A stretch of 33,749 nt of DNA, from NCBI GenBank assembly GCA_030611015.1, contig JAUWQP010000008.1, positions 1 through 33,749 on the forward strand. Reading direction: 5' to 3'. The notes under the pieces are model-generated. The model had not been told where the DNA came from. It saw only the letters and a list, made by a program, of their open reading frames with translations, and did no database searches. The stretch is from Chloroflexota bacterium (GTDB lineage: Bacteria; Chloroflexota; Dehalococcoidia; GIF9; AB-539-J10). Numbering within the stretch: position 1 is the stretch's first letter; every line of letters begins with the position of its first letter. Shown piece by piece: positions 11,572-33,749 of the stretch. The position numbers were made by a program, and so were the translations under genes.

Positions 11572-12573
11572 ATGTCTTTAAGTGATGCAGCTCTGGTAAC
11601 ACTGGCTCAGGCTAAGGCACATCTGCGAATAGATGCTGTGACCAACCTTCATATAGACGCTGAATATGTTGGCGCCGGAGATGTTGGCGAGACTTTAGTG
11701 TTCCCCCTTGACTACACTCCTGTAGAGGGTAGCTTGAAGCTATACCTTGAGGGCATCTTGCAGGTTGAGACCACTCACTTTAGTATCACTGATGCCGTCA
11801 TTACCTTTATTACGGCTCCCCCAGACAGTGATATAATCACTGCCAGTTATGATAGGCTTTGGGAGGTTGGTGATGACCTCTTTGAGAGCTACAACGACCT
11901 TTTGCTGGAGAACCTAATTGAGGCAGCTACCGAGAAGGCTGAAAGTTATACCGGCAGAGCCTTTGTTCAGCGATCTGTTACTGAATCACATTTCGGAGAT
12001 GGCTCTAAGGTACTAAGGCTTTATAAGCAGCCGGTAGACTCAATTACCAGCGTGGTTAGGGAAATCTCTGAGGCAGTTGGTACGGGAGATGGCTCGACAG
12101 TAGAATTCACTCTGGACGAAACACCCACGGCACTTAGCGTGAAGGTTTATGTAGATGGAACACTTAAGACTCTGACCATGGATTATACCATTAGTGGTGC
12201 TGTAATAACATTCGAATCTACCTCTATCCCTGCGGATGGAGCTAAGGTCACAGCTAAATATACCCACACGATCTTGGCTATTAACGAATATACCGAATGG
12301 CTTTCGGTAGGCCGATTGCAAAGCGTGGATGCCTGGACTGCTAACAGGATATTCACTGTAGTATATACTGCCGGGTATGCTGCAACGAGGCCAGCTACGC
12401 AGGCGTTGGTCCCTGACGCAGTGGCGGCAGTGTTGCTGATACTAGCTAACTTATTTGAAAACAGGACTGACCAGGTAAAGACGGAGAGAGTCGCCGATCT
12501 TGGATCGGTCACTTATGACATACCTAGTCAAGCAAAGGTGCTATTAAATCCTCTGAAGGTGAACCTATTATAA
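11572..12573 (+). CDS. Head-tail connector (gp6-like) with two inserted beta domains
   Basis: A 333-aa protein. The helical connector core is recognisable in pieces: 'LVTLAQAKAHLRID' at the start, 'LFESYNDLLLENLIEAATEKAESYTGRAFVQRSVTE' in the middle and 'VPDAVAAVLLILANLFENRTDQ...SVTYDIPSQAKVLLNPL' at the end. The core is interrupted by two similar beta repeats, about residues 46-98 (SLKLYLEGILQVETTHFSIT) and 169-227 (ALSVKVYVDGTLKTLTMDYT, then ISGAVITFESTSIPADGAKV). Ordinary gp6-like connectors are about 100-200 aa; the excess is the two inserts. Confidence 0.75.
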   Translation: MSLSDAALVTLAQAKAHLRIDAVTNLHIDAEYVGAGDVGETLVFPLDYTPVEGSLKLYLEGILQVETTHFSITDAVITFITAPPDSDIITASYDRLWEVGDDLFESYNDLLLENLIEAATEKAESYTGRAFVQRSVTESHFGDGSKVLRLYKQPVDSITSVVREISEAVGTGDGSTVEFTLDETPTALSVKVYVDGTLKTLTMDYTISGAVITFESTSIPADGAKVTAKYTHTILAINEYTEWLSVGRLQSVDAWTANRIFTVVYTAGYAATRPATQALVPDAVAAVLLILANLFENRTDQVKTERVADLGSVTYDIPSQAKVLLNPLKVNLL

Positions 12574-21219: not shown

Positions 21220-23010
21220 ATGAGTGCGCACGGAACGTTACATGGAACTATCACTGAAACTGGCGGAGAGAATGCTGACTTCCGAGGCTTCGTTTGGGAT
21301 ACCACTTCTAGAGGAGACCCAGGAGACACAGCGCCAGCGGCTTCGGACTATGCTAGTAACTGGACAGAAGGTAACTCCTATGAGGCAGAATCTTTCAACC
21401 ATCAAGTAACTGGACTTGCAGAAGGCGATATCTTTTATGTCAGAGCTTGTGCTCATAACTCTGCTGGATGGAGCTATGGTGGAGAAGTAAGTTTTAATAC
21501 ACCTACGGCTTATACTAAAACCGTGTCTATGGATGCTTTGTTGAAGGCTCTAGATACCAAAACCGCCGATATTGATGCCATAGTAGTAGCTAGAAGTAAG
21601 GAGGAAATAGCGGTTGACTTGCTACTCAAGGCACTGGATTCTAAGGAAATCAATCTCGATGCCTTGATTGCTCAGTTGGGTGTGACGAAAGAGGCGATTA
21701 TTGACGCTATTATAGTCCTTAGAGACTCCCAAATGGTCGATGTTGATGCTCTGATACGAGATACAGACACAAAAGAAGTTAATCTAGACACTCTGATAAA
21801 TATTATTGGCACAGAGGAAGTTAGCCTTGATGCTTTGGTTAAGGCGCTTGGCGTTGATAAGACTGTACTTTTAGATACGCTGTTAAGAGATACTGCTACC
21901 AAAACCGTTAATCTCAATACTTTGGTCAGAGTCCTAGGCATAACTAAAACAGTCGCCCTAGATATTATCCTAGGGATATTTCGTCAGCAAATCAATCTTG
22001 ATATTTTATTAAGGGCTGTAGATGTTAAAACTGTTGACATTGACTTGCTGCTCAGGGTATTAGATTCTAAGGAGATTAATCTTGATACCTTAATTGCCCA
22101 ATTAGGTATAACAAAAGAGGTGGCTATTGACATCATCACAGTCCTTAGAGATGCTCAAACAGTTAACCTCGATAGTTTAATACGAGATACGGATACCAAA
22201 ACTGTTGACGTTGACACCCTAATAGCAGCGTTAAAAGAAGTCAAGACTGTATCGATTGATACACTAATCAAAACCATCGGGAAATCTGAGCCTCAAATTG
22301 ATATGCTTATTCAAGCTATCGATGAGAAGACATTATCACTCGATGTTCTATTGAAATATGCGGATACAAAGCAAGTTGCTCTTGATATCTTGATAGCAGC
22401 GCTTGGAATAGCGAAGACTGTTGACCTTGATACACTATTGCGAGAGACAGATACTAAAACTGCCGACCTTGACGTTTGGTTAAAGGCACTGAGTGTAGTG
22501 GAAACTGTTAATCTTGATACCTTAATCACTCAATTGGGTGTGACGAAAGAAGTAGCCGTAGATGCTATTATAGTTAAAAGGGATACACAAACGGTTAGTC
22601 TTGATGCCTTAGTTAAGGCTTTAGGTATAGCTAAGACGGTGGCTCTCGACATAATCATCGAGGCTGCGGGCGATATAAGGCAGGTCACCCTTGACGTTTT
22701 GCTTAGCGGTAGGGCTTCAGTCGCTGTTTCGCTTGATGTGATAATATATGCCTATCCTAGTCCTGCAGTTCATTATATAATCGAGTTACGAAATAGTGAC
22801 GGTGATTTGGTAGCTATATTGGAGAATGCTCATAATATATCGTACGCCCAGATGGTAAATAGCCCATTCGCTTTGAGTTTTGCATTGCCGGCGGACGACA
22901 CTAAAGGGAGCGACATATTACTCGCGAACGAAATATGGCTTAGAGACTATGACGCCGGCACCATAATTAAGAAGTTTCGCTTGAGTAAGAAGAGGGATAT
23001 ACGGCATTGA
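21220..23010 (+). CDS. Tail protein: partial FN3, 29-copy repeat rod, start of tail-tip (Tal-like) domain
   Basis: A 596-aa protein. Residues 1-97 are most of an FN3 domain ('GTITETGGENADFRGFVWDT..', 'YVRACAHNSAGWSYGGEVSFNTP'). Residues 100-512 are about 29 tandem units of 13-15 residues with the pattern K-T/E-V-x-L/I-D-x-L-I/L. Residues 515-596 ('VHYIIELRNSDGDLVAILENAHNISYAQMVNSPFALSFALPADD...LANEIWLRDYDAGTIIKKFRL') are the beginning of a tail-tip baseplate domain that appears to continue in the next gene. It ends in TTGA overlap with 23007. Receptor-binding region. Confidence 0.72.
   Translation: MSAHGTLHGTITETGGENADFRGFVWDTTSRGDPGDTAPAASDYASNWTEGNSYEAESFNHQVTGLAEGDIFYVRACAHNSAGWSYGGEVSFNTPTAYTKTVSMDALLKALDTKTADIDAIVVARSKEEIAVDLLLKALDSKEINLDALIAQLGVTKEAIIDAIIVLRDSQMVDVDALIRDTDTKEVNLDTLINIIGTEEVSLDALVKALGVDKTVLLDTLLRDTATKTVNLNTLVRVLGITKTVALDIILGIFRQQINLDILLRAVDVKTVDIDLLLRVLDSKEINLDTLIAQLGITKEVAIDIITVLRDAQTVNLDSLIRDTDTKTVDVDTLIAALKEVKTVSIDTLIKTIGKSEPQIDMLIQAIDEKTLSLDVLLKYADTKQVALDILIAALGIAKTVDLDTLLRETDTKTADLDVWLKALSVVETVNLDTLITQLGVTKEVAVDAIIVKRDTQTVSLDALVKALGIAKTVALDIIIEAAGDIRQVTLDVLLSGRASVAVSLDVIIYAYPSPAVHYIIELRNSDGDLVAILENAHNISYAQMVNSPFALSFALPADDTKGSDILLANEIWLRDYDAGTIIKKFRLSKKRDIRH
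21517..22755 (+). repeat. About 29 tandem 14-residue coding repeats
   Basis: Units such as KTVNLDTLIRDTDT, KEINLDALIAQLGVT and KTVALDIIIEAAGDI follow each other with no gaps, 13-15 residues each. The DNA is only loosely repeated (many synonymous changes), so the array is old or under protein-level selection. Super-units recur, for instance KEINLD.LIAQLG.TKE at units 4-5 and 14-15. Confidence 0.85.
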
Positions 23011-29330: not shown

Positions 29331-29965
29331 CAGAAACATTACCTGATATAAAACACATGCGCGGCGAGATCAAGGACTTTCTTACCGCTAAAGAAGCCCT
29401 AGTAGCCGCTACCATGGCTATTAAGGTGGTGGACGAAGAGACGGACGTGCAAGTCAGTAAATTCCTATCATCGGCACTAGTGCCGTTACGCAAGCAGATT
29501 GAAGCAAAGCGCCAGCAATACTCGACCTCACTACGGCGCCTGGCTACAGAATGGGACAAAGAGTTTAATCCAGCATTACAGGCGATTGACGGCTTGATCG
29601 GGTATCTCAAGCAAGCGAGGCTAGACTATAATCAAATCAAGCAAGAGGAAACCCGGTTGCTGCAAGCGGAGCTCGACCGCAAGGCCGAGGAAGACCGCAA
29701 GGCAGCCGAAGCACGCGGGGAGTTATCACAAATCCCTGAAGACGTGGCGGCCCTGGCCCCTGCTGTCCAAACCACAATCAAGACCGCAAACGGTAGTACC
29801 TCTATCGCGAAGCATCCGTACCTGGACATATACGATGAAGCCAAGCTACCGCGTCAATACCTAATCCCAGACAAGGGCAAAATATGGGAAGACGTCAAGG
29901 CAGGGATAGAAGTCCCTGGTGCTAAACTGGCCTATCGGGAACAGGTTAGTGTAAGGGCAAAATGA
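29327..29965 (+). CDS. Coiled-coil phage protein of the recombination region
   Basis: A 212-aa protein starting with GTG. Residues 40-130 are long helices ('PLRKQIEAKRQQYSTSLRRLATEWDKEFNPALQ', 'LLQAELDRKAEEDRKAAEARGEL'). The C-terminal part ('LPRQYLIPDKGKIWEDVKAGIEVPGAKLAYREQVSV') is a pattern seen in phage proteins coded near recombination genes. It is not an enzyme I can name; an accessory in replication or recombination is inferred from its neighbours. Confidence 0.6.
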   Translation: MTETLPDIKHMRGEIKDFLTAKEALVAATMAIKVVDEETDVQVSKFLSSALVPLRKQIEAKRQQYSTSLRRLATEWDKEFNPALQAIDGLIGYLKQARLDYNQIKQEETRLLQAELDRKAEEDRKAAEARGELSQIPEDVAALAPAVQTTIKTANGSTSIAKHPYLDIYDEAKLPRQYLIPDKGKIWEDVKAGIEVPGAKLAYREQVSVRAK

Positions 29966-30720
29966 AGCCATACTATCAAGATAAGTGGGTAACAATCTAT
30001 CACGGTGATTGCAGGGAGATATTGCCAATGCTGGGAGTGTCGGAACTGAAAGACGACACCCTTTGGGGTGGGCTATGCCATGAGGGTTTGAATCCCTCCT
30101 CCCAGCACCCGCAAATAGATTTGGTATTGACTGACCCGCCGTATTCCTTGCCAGCAAGAATTTCAGGCACAAGGCAGTTGTTTTACCGTTCCCTAACAGA
30201 ATTGAGTATATTGGAATATTTCTTTAGGGATTTCTTTTCGTGGTGTAATAAAGTTGTTAAAGATTCTTCGGTTTATTATATCTTTTGTGATGGGCAGAGC
30301 TACCCCGTATTTTACTCATTGCTCTATGGCTATGTTAAGTCAGTGCGTCCTTTAATATGGGACAAGAAGACTTCAATAAATAGGTATAGTTGGCGACACC
30401 AACACGAACTAATTATTTTTGCAGAGATGGCGAATGCTCCATTGGTGAAAACTGGTGATGGAGATATATTGAGATTTAGTGCTGTCCCTGTGATGGAGAG
30501 AAGGCATCCAGCAGAGAAGCCAGTAGATTTACTGTGTAACTTGATAGCCAAAAGTGCAAAAGCGAATAGTATAATTCTTGACCCATTTATGGGCGTTGGT
30601 TCATCAATAGTAGCTACTAAGAAGCTCAATCGCAAGTCCATCGGCATAGAGATAGAGGAGAAATACTGTGAGATAGCGGCGAACAGATGTCGACAGGAAG
30701 TTATGGAGTTTACCAAATGA
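29962..30720 (+). CDS. DNA N-methyltransferase (beta-type) with an in-frame tRNA-like insert
   Basis: A 252-aa DNA methyltransferase of the N6-adenine/N4-cytosine class. Motif IV is TDPPYS (57-62), preceding motif I at ILDPFMGVGSS (205-215), then 'GIEIEEKYCEIAANR': the beta order. 'HPAEKPVDLLCNLI' is also typical. The start 'YYQDKWVTIYHGDCREILP' is normally followed within a few residues by the strand 'QIDLVLTDPPY'. Here residues 23-49 are extra, and their DNA is a tRNA-like fold (30030-30107). The insert is in frame and stop-free, so a full protein is likely. The role is protection of phage DNA or regulation. ATGA overlaps on both sides. Confidence 0.88.
   Translation: MKPYYQDKWVTIYHGDCREILPMLGVSELKDDTLWGGLCHEGLNPSSQHPQIDLVLTDPPYSLPARISGTRQLFYRSLTELSILEYFFRDFFSWCNKVVKDSSVYYIFCDGQSYPVFYSLLYGYVKSVRPLIWDKKTSINRYSWRHQHELIIFAEMANAPLVKTGDGDILRFSAVPVMERRHPAEKPVDLLCNLIAKSAKANSIILDPFMGVGSSIVATKKLNRKSIGIEIEEKYCEIAANRCRQEVMEFTK
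30030..30107 (+). ncRNA. Class II (Leu-type) tRNA-like element without an anticodon, inside a methyltransferase gene
   Basis: Acceptor: 30030-30037 pairs with 30099-30106 (8 bp). U8 and G9 at 30038-30039. D arm: 30040-30042 with 30054-30056, loop GAACTGAAAGA. Anticodon-type arm: CACCC (30057-30061) with GGGTG (30066-30070), but only a 4-base loop, TTTG. Variable arm: GGC-TAT-GCC (30071-30079). T arm: GAGGG (30082-30086) with CCCTC (30094-30098), loop TTTGAAT. Discriminator A107 followed by CCC. Tertiary pairs are all possible: 8-14, 15-48, 18-55, 54-58, and A19-U56 replacing the usual G19-C56. It cannot decode. A73 and the long variable arm fit leucine identity. Confidence 0.78.
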
Positions 30721-31340: not shown

Positions 31341-32323
31341 ATGGAGAAGAAACCGGAATGACGAGAGCACCTTTGGAAATAGCCAGTTTCGAAGAACTGA
31401 AGCTACAGACACAAAAGTTAGACCAATTCTACAAGTCTCTTATGGTACCAGGCACAGATTATGGAGTAATACCGGGGACAAAGAAACCCACGCTACTAAA
31501 ACCCGGGGCTGAATTGCTGCGTATATGGACTGGCTTGACTCCCGAATTCGAGGTAGATAGTACAGGCACAGACCTAGAGCGCGGCATCTTTGCTTACCAA
31601 GTCAAGTGTTCCCTTTATAATAAAGAGGGCCGATTGATAGGGCAGGGCGTGGGCTATTGCAGCTCGCTGGAGAGCAAATATCGGTATCGCTGGGTGAATG
31701 GACGTGACTTACCGCCCGGGACTGATAAGGCAAGCCTAGTAGTCCAGGAACGCACAAGCCGACAGACAGGCGGCAAGTGGCAAGTGTACCGGGTCGAAAA
31801 CGACAATCCACAGGATCAGGCGAACACCGTCTTGAAGATAGCAAAAAAGCGGTCATTCGTTGATGGCATATTGACTGTCACCGGCGCCGGTCGCATCTTT
31901 ACGCAAGACCTTGAAGATATGGTAGATGATGCCGGCCTAACACAAGGCCCGCCGGACCCACAGGGTAAAACCACGTCGAAGACACAAGGCAAGGTTAAAG
32001 ACCAAGCCGTAGGTAAGAAGACTTCAAGTAAGGCAGAAGACCAGCCACCAGCGGAAAACAAGGAAACCGCTATAACCACTGGTGAGATAGAGGGTAATGT
32101 AGTGCCAACTGAAAGTGATGATGAGCAGAAAAAGAAATTAGCCCAGAAGCAGGCGGCGATAAAGAACCTGGCCGATATGTATTCAGCCTGTTTTAATGAC
32201 TTCCAGATGCAGCCAGCCCAGGTCATGGCGGAGCTCAATGTCAAATCGAATATTGAAATCAAAGAGACACCGGCGGAATGCTATGCCAGGATCGCCAGCG
32301 TGATGAAAGTAAGTGACCAATAG
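31337..32323 (+). CDS. Probable recombination/annealing protein of unnamed phage family
   Basis: A 328-aa protein. Residues 20-190 are conserved-looking: 'KLDQFYKSLMVPGTDYGVIPGTKKPTLLKPGAELLRIWTGL', 'GQGVGYCSSLESKYRYRWV', 'ANTVLKIAKKRSFVDGILTVTGAGRIFTQDLED'. I have seen this pattern next to exonuclease genes in phages, and annealing (RecT/Rad52-like) activity is inferred from that. Residues 195-255 are a low-complexity linker (Lys, Thr, Gln, Glu). The C-terminal 70 residues form a small helical domain. AAAAGGAGG precedes its ATG. Confidence 0.6.
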   Translation: MNGEETGMTRAPLEIASFEELKLQTQKLDQFYKSLMVPGTDYGVIPGTKKPTLLKPGAELLRIWTGLTPEFEVDSTGTDLERGIFAYQVKCSLYNKEGRLIGQGVGYCSSLESKYRYRWVNGRDLPPGTDKASLVVQERTSRQTGGKWQVYRVENDNPQDQANTVLKIAKKRSFVDGILTVTGAGRIFTQDLEDMVDDAGLTQGPPDPQGKTTSKTQGKVKDQAVGKKTSSKAEDQPPAENKETAITTGEIEGNVVPTESDDEQKKKLAQKQAAIKNLADMYSACFNDFQMQPAQVMAELNVKSNIEIKETPAECYARIASVMKVSDQ

Positions 32324-32346
32324 CGGGGATAAACCCCGCTTTATTA
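32322..32346 (+). terminator. Intrinsic terminator after the annealing-protein gene
   Basis: AGCGGGG (32322-32328) pairs with CCCCGCT (32334-32340) around ATAAA, followed by TTATTA. It starts within the stop codon of the gene. It is the clearest rho-independent terminator in the window and isolates the methyltransferase remnant and the genes to its right. Confidence 0.75.
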
Positions 32347-32355
32347 GGATATGAG

Positions 32356-32499
32356 ATGGGCTGGTATCAAATAATTCAAGGCGATGCTAGGGATTTGCAA
32401 GCTTGCTGGGGTGGCGAGATAAAAACGTCTGTAGGCTCTGCCCGCTTGGGTTGTAATAAAACCCTGCCCCAGCAGGTTGACACAATAAGGAGGAGTTAA
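32356..32499 (+). pseudogene. DNA methyltransferase N-terminal remnant carrying a second tRNA-like element
   Basis: A 47-codon frame. Its start, WYQIIQGDARDL, is the typical beginning of phage beta-type DNA methyltransferases. After 'QAC' comes an element with the TGCTGGG/CCCAGCA ends, then 'QQVDTI', which lines up with 'QIDLVL' after the element in the intact gene at 29962. The sequence then stops before the DPPY motif, so the catalytic part is missing. It may be a relic of a paralogue whose RNA element has been kept, or it may still give a small peptide. Confidence 0.5.
32404..32474 (+). ncRNA. Second, degraded tRNA-like element
   Basis: TGCTGGGG (32404-32411) pairs with CCCCAGCA (32467-32474), 8 bp. 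TG follows (U8, G9). A weak D arm pairs 32413-32416 with 32426-32429 (one G-U). GGC-TCT-GCC (32434-32442) copies the variable arm of the first element. GGGTT (32448-32452) pairs with AACCC (32460-32464) around 7 bases, as a T arm, though the loop GTAATAA is not T-loop-like. The anticodon arm is missing entirely. It sits between a terminator and the ribosome site of 32499. Confidence 0.45.
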
Positions 32500-32684
32500 T
32501 GAATCAGAGCTTGTTTGAATTAAAAGAAGTGCATCCTAAATGTGGCTCTCATTATGAGATGCAGTTTGGCCATGCCTTTATTGTCTGTTGCCCTAAATGT
32601 GACAAATATTGGAACCCTTGTGAGAGTGCTTTAAAGCAATATCGGCAATGGTGCGAAATACCCTTGCAGGAGATACCAAAATGA
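32499..32684 (+). CDS. Small cysteine-rich (zinc-ribbon-like) protein
   Basis: A 61-aa protein with AAGGAGGAG before its ATG, which shares TAATG with the methyltransferase remnant. 'HPKCGSHYEMQ..HAFIVCCPKCDKYW..CESAL' gives CxxH and CCxxC knuckles like a zinc ribbon. ATGA overlap with the next gene. Function unknown. Confidence 0.6.
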   Translation: MNQSLFELKEVHPKCGSHYEMQFGHAFIVCCPKCDKYWNPCESALKQYRQWCEIPLQEIPK

Positions 32685-33308: not shown

Positions 33309-33626
33309 ATGAATAAATGCCCAAAATGCGGTAGCACAAGGGTCAGGATAGACTATCCGGAGATTACTTGCATGGCGTGTGGCTGGAGTGAGCCATTGAT
33401 AGACTATCCTATTTCCTATCAGGAACACAGGGTATACTCTAAGACCTTCAATAATATTGATTTAGTGCCTGAAGAACCACCCAAACCTGCTGAACGGGAA
33501 TTTCGATGGGATTATTATGATGTAGATGACAGAATAGGTAAACTTCGGCGCCAGGTAAACATGCTAATGGGTCAATCGGTATACCGACAGCAGAAGCAAT
33601 CCGGACTTCCAAGGATCGATGTATGA
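33309..33626 (+). CDS. Zinc-ribbon protein upstream of the replication ATPase
   Basis: A 105-aa protein. Residues 4-26 are a zinc ribbon (CPKC at 4-7, CMAC at 21-24 followed by GW). The rest is charged and helical ('AEREFRWDYYDVDDRIGKLRRQVNMLMGQSVYRQQKQ'). Its stop overlaps the ATG of the ATPase (position 15 on the circle), so the two are co-translated. It may load or regulate the ATPase; this is inferred from coupling only. Confidence 0.65.
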   Translation: MNKCPKCGSTRVRIDYPEITCMACGWSEPLIDYPISYQEHRVYSKTFNNIDLVPEEPPKPAEREFRWDYYDVDDRIGKLRRQVNMLMGQSVYRQQKQSGLPRIDV

Positions 33627-33749
33627 AGCCCAAAGTCGTGGAGCGGATCGATGGCTACGATATTGTTTGGGAGACTGAGCAAATCACGATATCCGTTACC
33701 CGGTTACACCAGCATATATCTGATGGCCGGGTAACAGGGGAAATACTAA
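33609..33749. repeat. Terminal redundancy, right copy
   Basis: Identical to 1-141. It contains the start of the ATPase gene a second time and should be trimmed when the genome is circularised. Confidence 0.93.
33623..33749 (+). CDS. Replication ATPase, duplicated 5' fragment (assembly overlap)
   Basis: The first 42 codons of the gene at 15-1241, repeated because the window closes a circle. It is not a second gene. Its presence shows that the ATPase is co-transcribed with the zinc-ribbon gene at 33309. Confidence 0.9.
   Translation, partial: MKPKVVERIDGYDIVWETEQITISVTRLHQHISDGRVTGEIL

Follow-up and report, generated by a model that had tools for sequence, protein, structure and literature searches.

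Several described systems come close to parts of the locus analysed here. In E. coli, the leucine identity of tRNA-Leu is specified by A73 and the elbow contacts and not by the anticodon, and charging can do without the anticodon arm (PMC9976931). Bacteria are also known to take up small palindromic repeats in frame, as with the Rickettsia palindromic elements (RPE), and an enzyme bearing an RPE stays active (PMC2229807). In Edaphobacter, an allo-tRNA pseudogene, degenerate but still tRNA-like, overlaps a transposon-related ORF (reviewed in PMC7609411). Phages, in turn, answer tRNA-cutting defences by supplying tRNAs (PMC11555353).

The two elements described below, E1 and E2, resemble each of these systems only in part. 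E1 shares with a bacterial class II tRNA-Leu (UAG) the order of acceptor, D, variable and T arms and the elbow contacts, but it has neither the 7-base anticodon loop nor CCA, is closed by a 9-bp stem and lies inside a protein gene; E2 differs further, as the elbow signals are gone too. The likeness to RPE and in-frame bacterial MITEs consists in the small palindromic in-frame insertion, whereas E1 and E2 are apparently tRNA-derived, exist in two copies, have no target-site duplication and occupy one type of site. The Edaphobacter pseudogene has an anticodon (UAU) and disrupted pairs, whereas E1 forms all of its pairs and has no anticodon. With the phage rescue tRNAs, which are complete and decoding, E1 has in common only that it is a tRNA-related RNA on a phage, and it cannot decode.

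The window, i.e., the whole stretch of DNA that was analysed, is a contig of 33,749 nt within the searched assembly of 1.79 Mb. Its end repeats its start exactly over 141 nt (1-141 = 33609-33749) and, because of this direct repeat, positions 1-33749 are probably the complete genome of a small phage, circular or terminally redundant. The features discussed in the text are collected in Table 1; E1 and E2 are 2.4 kb apart.

Table 1. Positions of the two elements, the genes that carry them and adjoining signals in the window.
Feature	Position	Strand	Basis or remark
E1, tRNA-Leu(UAG)-derived class II cloverleaf without usable anticodon loop, in-frame, +25 aa	30029-30107	+	Covariance model; fold z -3.9; relatives without it
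Intact beta-class DNA methyltransferase, 252 aa, carries E1	29962-30720	+	Pfam PF01555, E 5e-28; predicted fold
Terminator-like hairpin AGCGGGGATAAACCCCGC, then T-rich stretch	32322-32344	+	Sequence; just 5' of the remnant
N-terminal remnant of a DNA methyltransferase, 47-codon ORF	32356-32499	+	Rank 2 with methyltransferase-start profile
E2	32404-32474	+	Fold; second-best match of E1 covariance model; ends unique together with E1
Ribosome-binding site AAGGAGG of the next gene (32499-32684)	32484-32498	+	Sequence; abuts the truncated methyltransferase

E1, an in-frame insertion descended from tRNA-Leu(UAG)

E1 adds exactly 25 codons, in frame, to the intact methyltransferase gene. Related methyltransferases are without the insertion and read unbroken through ILPxL-PxVDLVLTDPPY, including one encoded in the same host family (L312). 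Structure prediction for the enzyme (mean pLDDT 84, lower in a few loops) gave a fold matching those of CcrM, M.BceJIV and MboIIA. Its longest low-confidence loop was the insert itself (residues ~26-49, pLDDT ~50), and the E1-encoded loop is predicted to be disordered. Other short inserts are present in the same loop of a few relatives, which argues that the loop is permissive. Zinc-knuckle-like inserts (YKECGICAGGGCENCGKGYFGE; GWCSTCGCELADEMIVAIHLASKHE) were seen at this loop in L053 and L059 (3001-3732) and in L357 (5001-5714), which are unrelated contigs.

In BLAST searches with E1, the genomes of the order repeatedly gave tRNA-Leu(UAG) as the match. The identity to the tRNA-Leu(UAG) of the host order was 92% over 24 nt, with 16 nt of E1 identical to the tRNA-Leu of that order, and among the best 16 matches elsewhere that were checked all 16 were UAG isoacceptors. 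A covariance model built from six tRNA-Leu(UAG) of the host order recognized E1 over its full length with 49.7 bits (E 2.5e-10), while the host's other Leu tRNAs scored 60-70 bits with the same model. E1 therefore descends from a bacterial leucine tRNA of the UAG isoacceptor type, a key that the preliminary description of the two elements had lacked. The second-best match of the tRNA-Leu model (12323-12401; 18.9 bits, E 0.009) fell in a structural gene, had several broken pairs and is probably due to chance.

All 23 pairs of the model are formed in E1, in an alignment that is biased towards the model because it was fitted to it. Double changes private to E1 were found in acceptor pairs 1 and 2 and in variable-arm pair 2, and these could predate the insertion. 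The anticodon stem has been replaced yet is still paired; the T stem GAGGG/CCCTC is not private, being present in a tRNA-Leu of the same class. Besides the acceptor, D, variable and T arms, E1 retains the elbow between the D and T loops: U8, A14, G18, U55, U54 and A58 are kept (contacts G18-U55 and U54-A58). At the outer corner, G19 is changed to A and C56 to U, which would give an A19-U56 pair instead of G19-C56.

The anticodon arm of E1 (CACCC-TTTG-GGGTG) has a 4-base loop in place of a 7-base loop with U33, and E1 thus cannot decode. In line with its being no decoding tRNA gene, ARAGORN reported 0 genes for E1 and nothing reached the Rfam gathering threshold. A tRNA-Sec match of E1 reached only 22 bits, below the threshold, and was rejected. 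The closing stem extends to 9 bp, pairing the would-be discriminator A (position 73, ambiguous), and it is followed by CCC and not CCA.

E2 in a truncated methyltransferase frame

The ORF at 32356-32499 reads MGWYQIIQGDARDL...QVDTIRRS*, with the stop preceding DPPY/SPPY and the VDTI-RRS-stop end placed directly 5' of the ribosome-binding site of the next gene. E2 is located between GDAR and VDTI of this methyltransferase start. The earlier claim that the ORF is a remnant ending before the catalytic motif, with homologues among methyltransferase starts, agreed with a profile made of 93 such starts from other loci, the window being excluded. The profile ranked the intact methyltransferase first in the window and the E2 frame second (E=0.0048, or 0.0041 with the element excised), matching the N-terminal GDxR region; as good a match was given by 0 of 2000 shuffles, and the next genuine frame had E=1.5. 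These matches identify the ORF as an N-terminal methyltransferase remnant, truncated before the catalytic motif. A further match on E2, obtained with an order-wide methyltransferase probe, was dismissed because the probe itself contained E2 residues.

The position and parts first described for E2 were all found again in the sequence and in its predicted fold. The closing stem of 8-9 bp, in which TGCTGGGG (32404-32411) pairs with CCCCAGCA (32467-32474), encloses a weak 4-bp D-like arm (GGCG/CGTC), then GGC-TCT-GCC and a 5-bp arm with a 7-base loop (GGGTT GTAATAA AACCC), and the anticodon arm is absent. The interior folded no better than shuffled sequences (p 0.15-0.23; p 0.06 for the three hairpins). 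With the tRNA-Leu covariance model a score of 8.7 bits (E 2.8) was obtained at the E2 coordinates, the closing stem alone being aligned, and a promoter scan 5' of E2 detected no promoter-like site. Since the elbow signals, the D-loop GG and the T-loop TTC, are missing, E2 is probably a relic; its inner fold and tertiary signals have decayed.

Two copies with the same ends had been taken to make chance much less likely, and this held. E1 and E2 are the sole occurrences of TGCTGGG-N40-70-CCCAGCA in the 1.79-Mb assembly, where ~0.1 would be expected, the expectation for the same pattern of 7+7 end bases in the window being 0.002. A covariance model made from E1 only gave E2, with its borders exactly at 32404-32474, as the second-best match in the window (18.8 bits, E=0.005); as background, other methyltransferase loci totalling 612 kb gave no score above 13.1 bits. 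The E2 interior folded no better than shuffled controls, as described above, and with the ends removed it was only weakly similar to that of E1 (p 0.04). MAFFT gave no useful alignment of the two elements. The evidence for kinship lies mainly in the ends, and the homology of E2 to E1 is supported, but less strongly.

The ends were identical at 14/14 positions versus 63/94 in flank and interior (Fisher p 0.009, a value carrying an ascertainment bias, since E2 was noticed by its ends). This speaks for the suggestion that an RNA was kept in E2, whereas the decay of the inner fold and the tertiary signals speaks against it. The insertion sites, previously said to lie at the same place in the methyltransferase, differ by no more than 1 nt, the distance from the GD codon being 24 nt in one and 25 nt in the other. 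Measured against the codons of the methyltransferase, the starting phase is 1 for E1 and 0 for E2; neither element is open in any frame but its own, and the inserted peptides are unrelated. Due to these different reading frames, a shared constraint, if any, would act on the nucleic acid and not on the peptide.

Further copies in genomes, phages and plasmids

A third copy was found neither in 84 genomes of the order or 400 genomes of the phylum nor in 94 methyltransferase loci, phages or plasmids. The search for the element in methyltransferases of other phages, as proposed earlier, gave no copy: tblastn matches of phage sequences to an E2-based probe, some of them across annotated gene boundaries, contained no insertion, and the pattern scans found none either. 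In viral sequences these scans covered the ends together with GGCTNTGCC, the ends before a PPY motif, T-arm-like sequences before DPPY and long gaps between GDCRE and DPPY, and none yielded a further copy. Exact patterns were used throughout, with one codon form in the longest-gap scan, and the collections may omit records near the window. The long-gap scans reached <=132 nt for GAT-type codons and only <=102 nt for GAC-type codons, so that a GAC-type gene with a 25-aa insert would escape. The matches returned by the viral pattern scans were chance hits, ordinary tRNAs and one zinc-knuckle insert.

In other genomes the E1 model also gave short matches of 71-80 nt, which proved to be noise or ordinary tRNA-Ser/Leu. 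A 34-nt stretch in a genome of the same family (L342, 1501-1534) was 86% identical to the 5' half of E2 (E 0.002) and was judged a chance match; it falls in what reads like a clpP-like sequence on the reverse strand. Several copies at unrelated sites, as in a MITE- or RPE-like mobile element, were not observed, as there were two copies only, and no direct repeat indicating a target-site duplication flanks E1 or E2.

Origin and possible function of the elements

The explanation we favour, and hold to be rather probable, is that of one tRNA-Leu-derived element that was duplicated or reinserted into a second methyltransferase gene, which then decayed. The homology of E1 to tRNA-Leu, the in-frame insertion, the empty sites in relatives, the shared ends and the methyltransferase remnant are established. 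A leucine tRNA gene of the UAG isoacceptor type would have entered a phage DNA methyltransferase gene in frame, at a permissive surface loop between the GDxR and the catalytic DPPY motifs. E1 has lost its anticodon loop and kept its elbow contacts together with the acceptor, D, variable and T arms, and the methyltransferase is read straight through it. The second methyltransferase gene, 2.4 kb away, may have acquired its copy of the element at the matching site either through duplication or through another insertion event, and may later have been truncated, its element being E2. Mobility and a lost paralogue with its RNA kept were the alternatives offered at the outset; a shared origin and a remnant are supported, and each alternative survives, neither being proved. 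Our confidence in the routes weighed below overlaps with that in the favoured explanation because duplication and mobility are each compatible with it.

Duplication, in which an element-bearing methyltransferase gene was copied once and the second gene decayed together with its element, would need no mobility, and we give it a probability slightly short of even. It is consistent with the left flanks, which are 27/42 identical (p 0.02), about the level of the elements, with the E2 flank peptide GWYQIIQGDARDL, which matched best with members of the E1 methyltransferase family and has a W in common with them, and with the lack of other copies in any collection searched. However, relative to the methyltransferase frame the element has moved by 1 nt, and its translation uses another frame, so that at least two indels would be needed. 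Moreover, the right flanks are dissimilar, and GDA-type starts go mostly with SPPY-type methyltransferases (9/12), whereas the E1 enzyme is of the TDPPY type.

Separate insertions would better explain the shift of 1 nt, the GDAR motif and the lack of similarity in the right flank, and they would be expected if TGCTGGG...CCCAGCA were a small non-autonomous, tRNA-derived mobile unit that, like an RPE, inserts in frame at a methyltransferase site. The same ends at the same site, within 1 nt, in two methyltransferases of possibly different subfamilies also fit such a unit, for which the in-frame palindromic repeats of other bacteria offer a precedent (PMC2229807). Nevertheless, with two copies only, no visible target-site duplication and no other insertion in the scanned collections, we consider this route unlikely, and the outer stem bases may be partly methyltransferase sequence. 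A recurrent mobile family is also opposed by the lack of a further copy in the genomes, loci, viral and plasmid sets searched.

If E1 alone were real, E2 would be an inverted repeat formed by chance in a short, unrelated ORF or a leader. Perfect 8-bp inverted repeats with a comparable span are no rarity in the window (25 arms), so that the E2 hairpin by itself proves nothing, and its interior fold is ordinary. The identical ends, the methyltransferase start at the matching position and the E value of the covariance model make this explanation improbable. Part of a tRNA gene is frequently duplicated in phage attachment sites, and the 16 nt of E1 shared with the host-order tRNA-Leu would fit a former attP for integration into a host tRNA-Leu gene, but this is very improbable, as no tyrosine integrase was found on the contig or among the scanned ORFs, the identity lies in the 5' half of E1 while the 3' half differs, and two copies within methyltransferase genes would be unexpected.

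In the favoured explanation, E2 is best classed, on its sequence, as the decayed relative of an in-frame insertion that stems from tRNA-Leu, an unusual one with putative function and mobility. Since E1 has given up only what is needed for decoding and has retained the elbow, the most concrete hypothesis, and our best guess, is a putative non-decoding tRNA-Leu mimic within the mRNA. Such a mimic may interact with host factors that bind tRNA (RNase P, LeuRS) or be excised to give a stable RNA. Among the candidate features of a LeuRS substrate, the elbow contacts are present in the E1 sequence and A73 is ambiguous; charging is uncertain because the discriminator A is paired in the 9-bp stem and CCC stands in place of CCA. 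That a tRNA-Leu-derived anticodon-less RNA, translated yet kept as a folded mimic, hit the same methyltransferase site at least twice in one phage appears doubtful to us.

If the fold is functional, one gene region would carry two messages, a methyltransferase loop and a non-decoding tRNA mimic, and would provide a concrete test of tRNA look-alikes in mRNA that engage tRNA enzymes or tRNA-cutting defences. If it is not, E1 would still show clearly how an enzyme can take up a tRNA gene in frame, and E2 would illustrate the decay of such an insertion once the host gene is lost.

Other parts of the window also contained repeats. The 17-18-mer core of AGCGGGGATAAACCCCGC (32322-32340) recurs many times, in several genomes of the same genus and family, a link between the phage and these hosts. 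Between two genes, at 1248-1449, lies a cluster of inverted repeats that overlap one another (CTTACAAC and its neighbours), a possible replication or control site. The region 21220-23010, adjoining the tail region, encodes a protein of ~600 aa that consists mostly of short degenerate repeats (LLKALDTKT-like).
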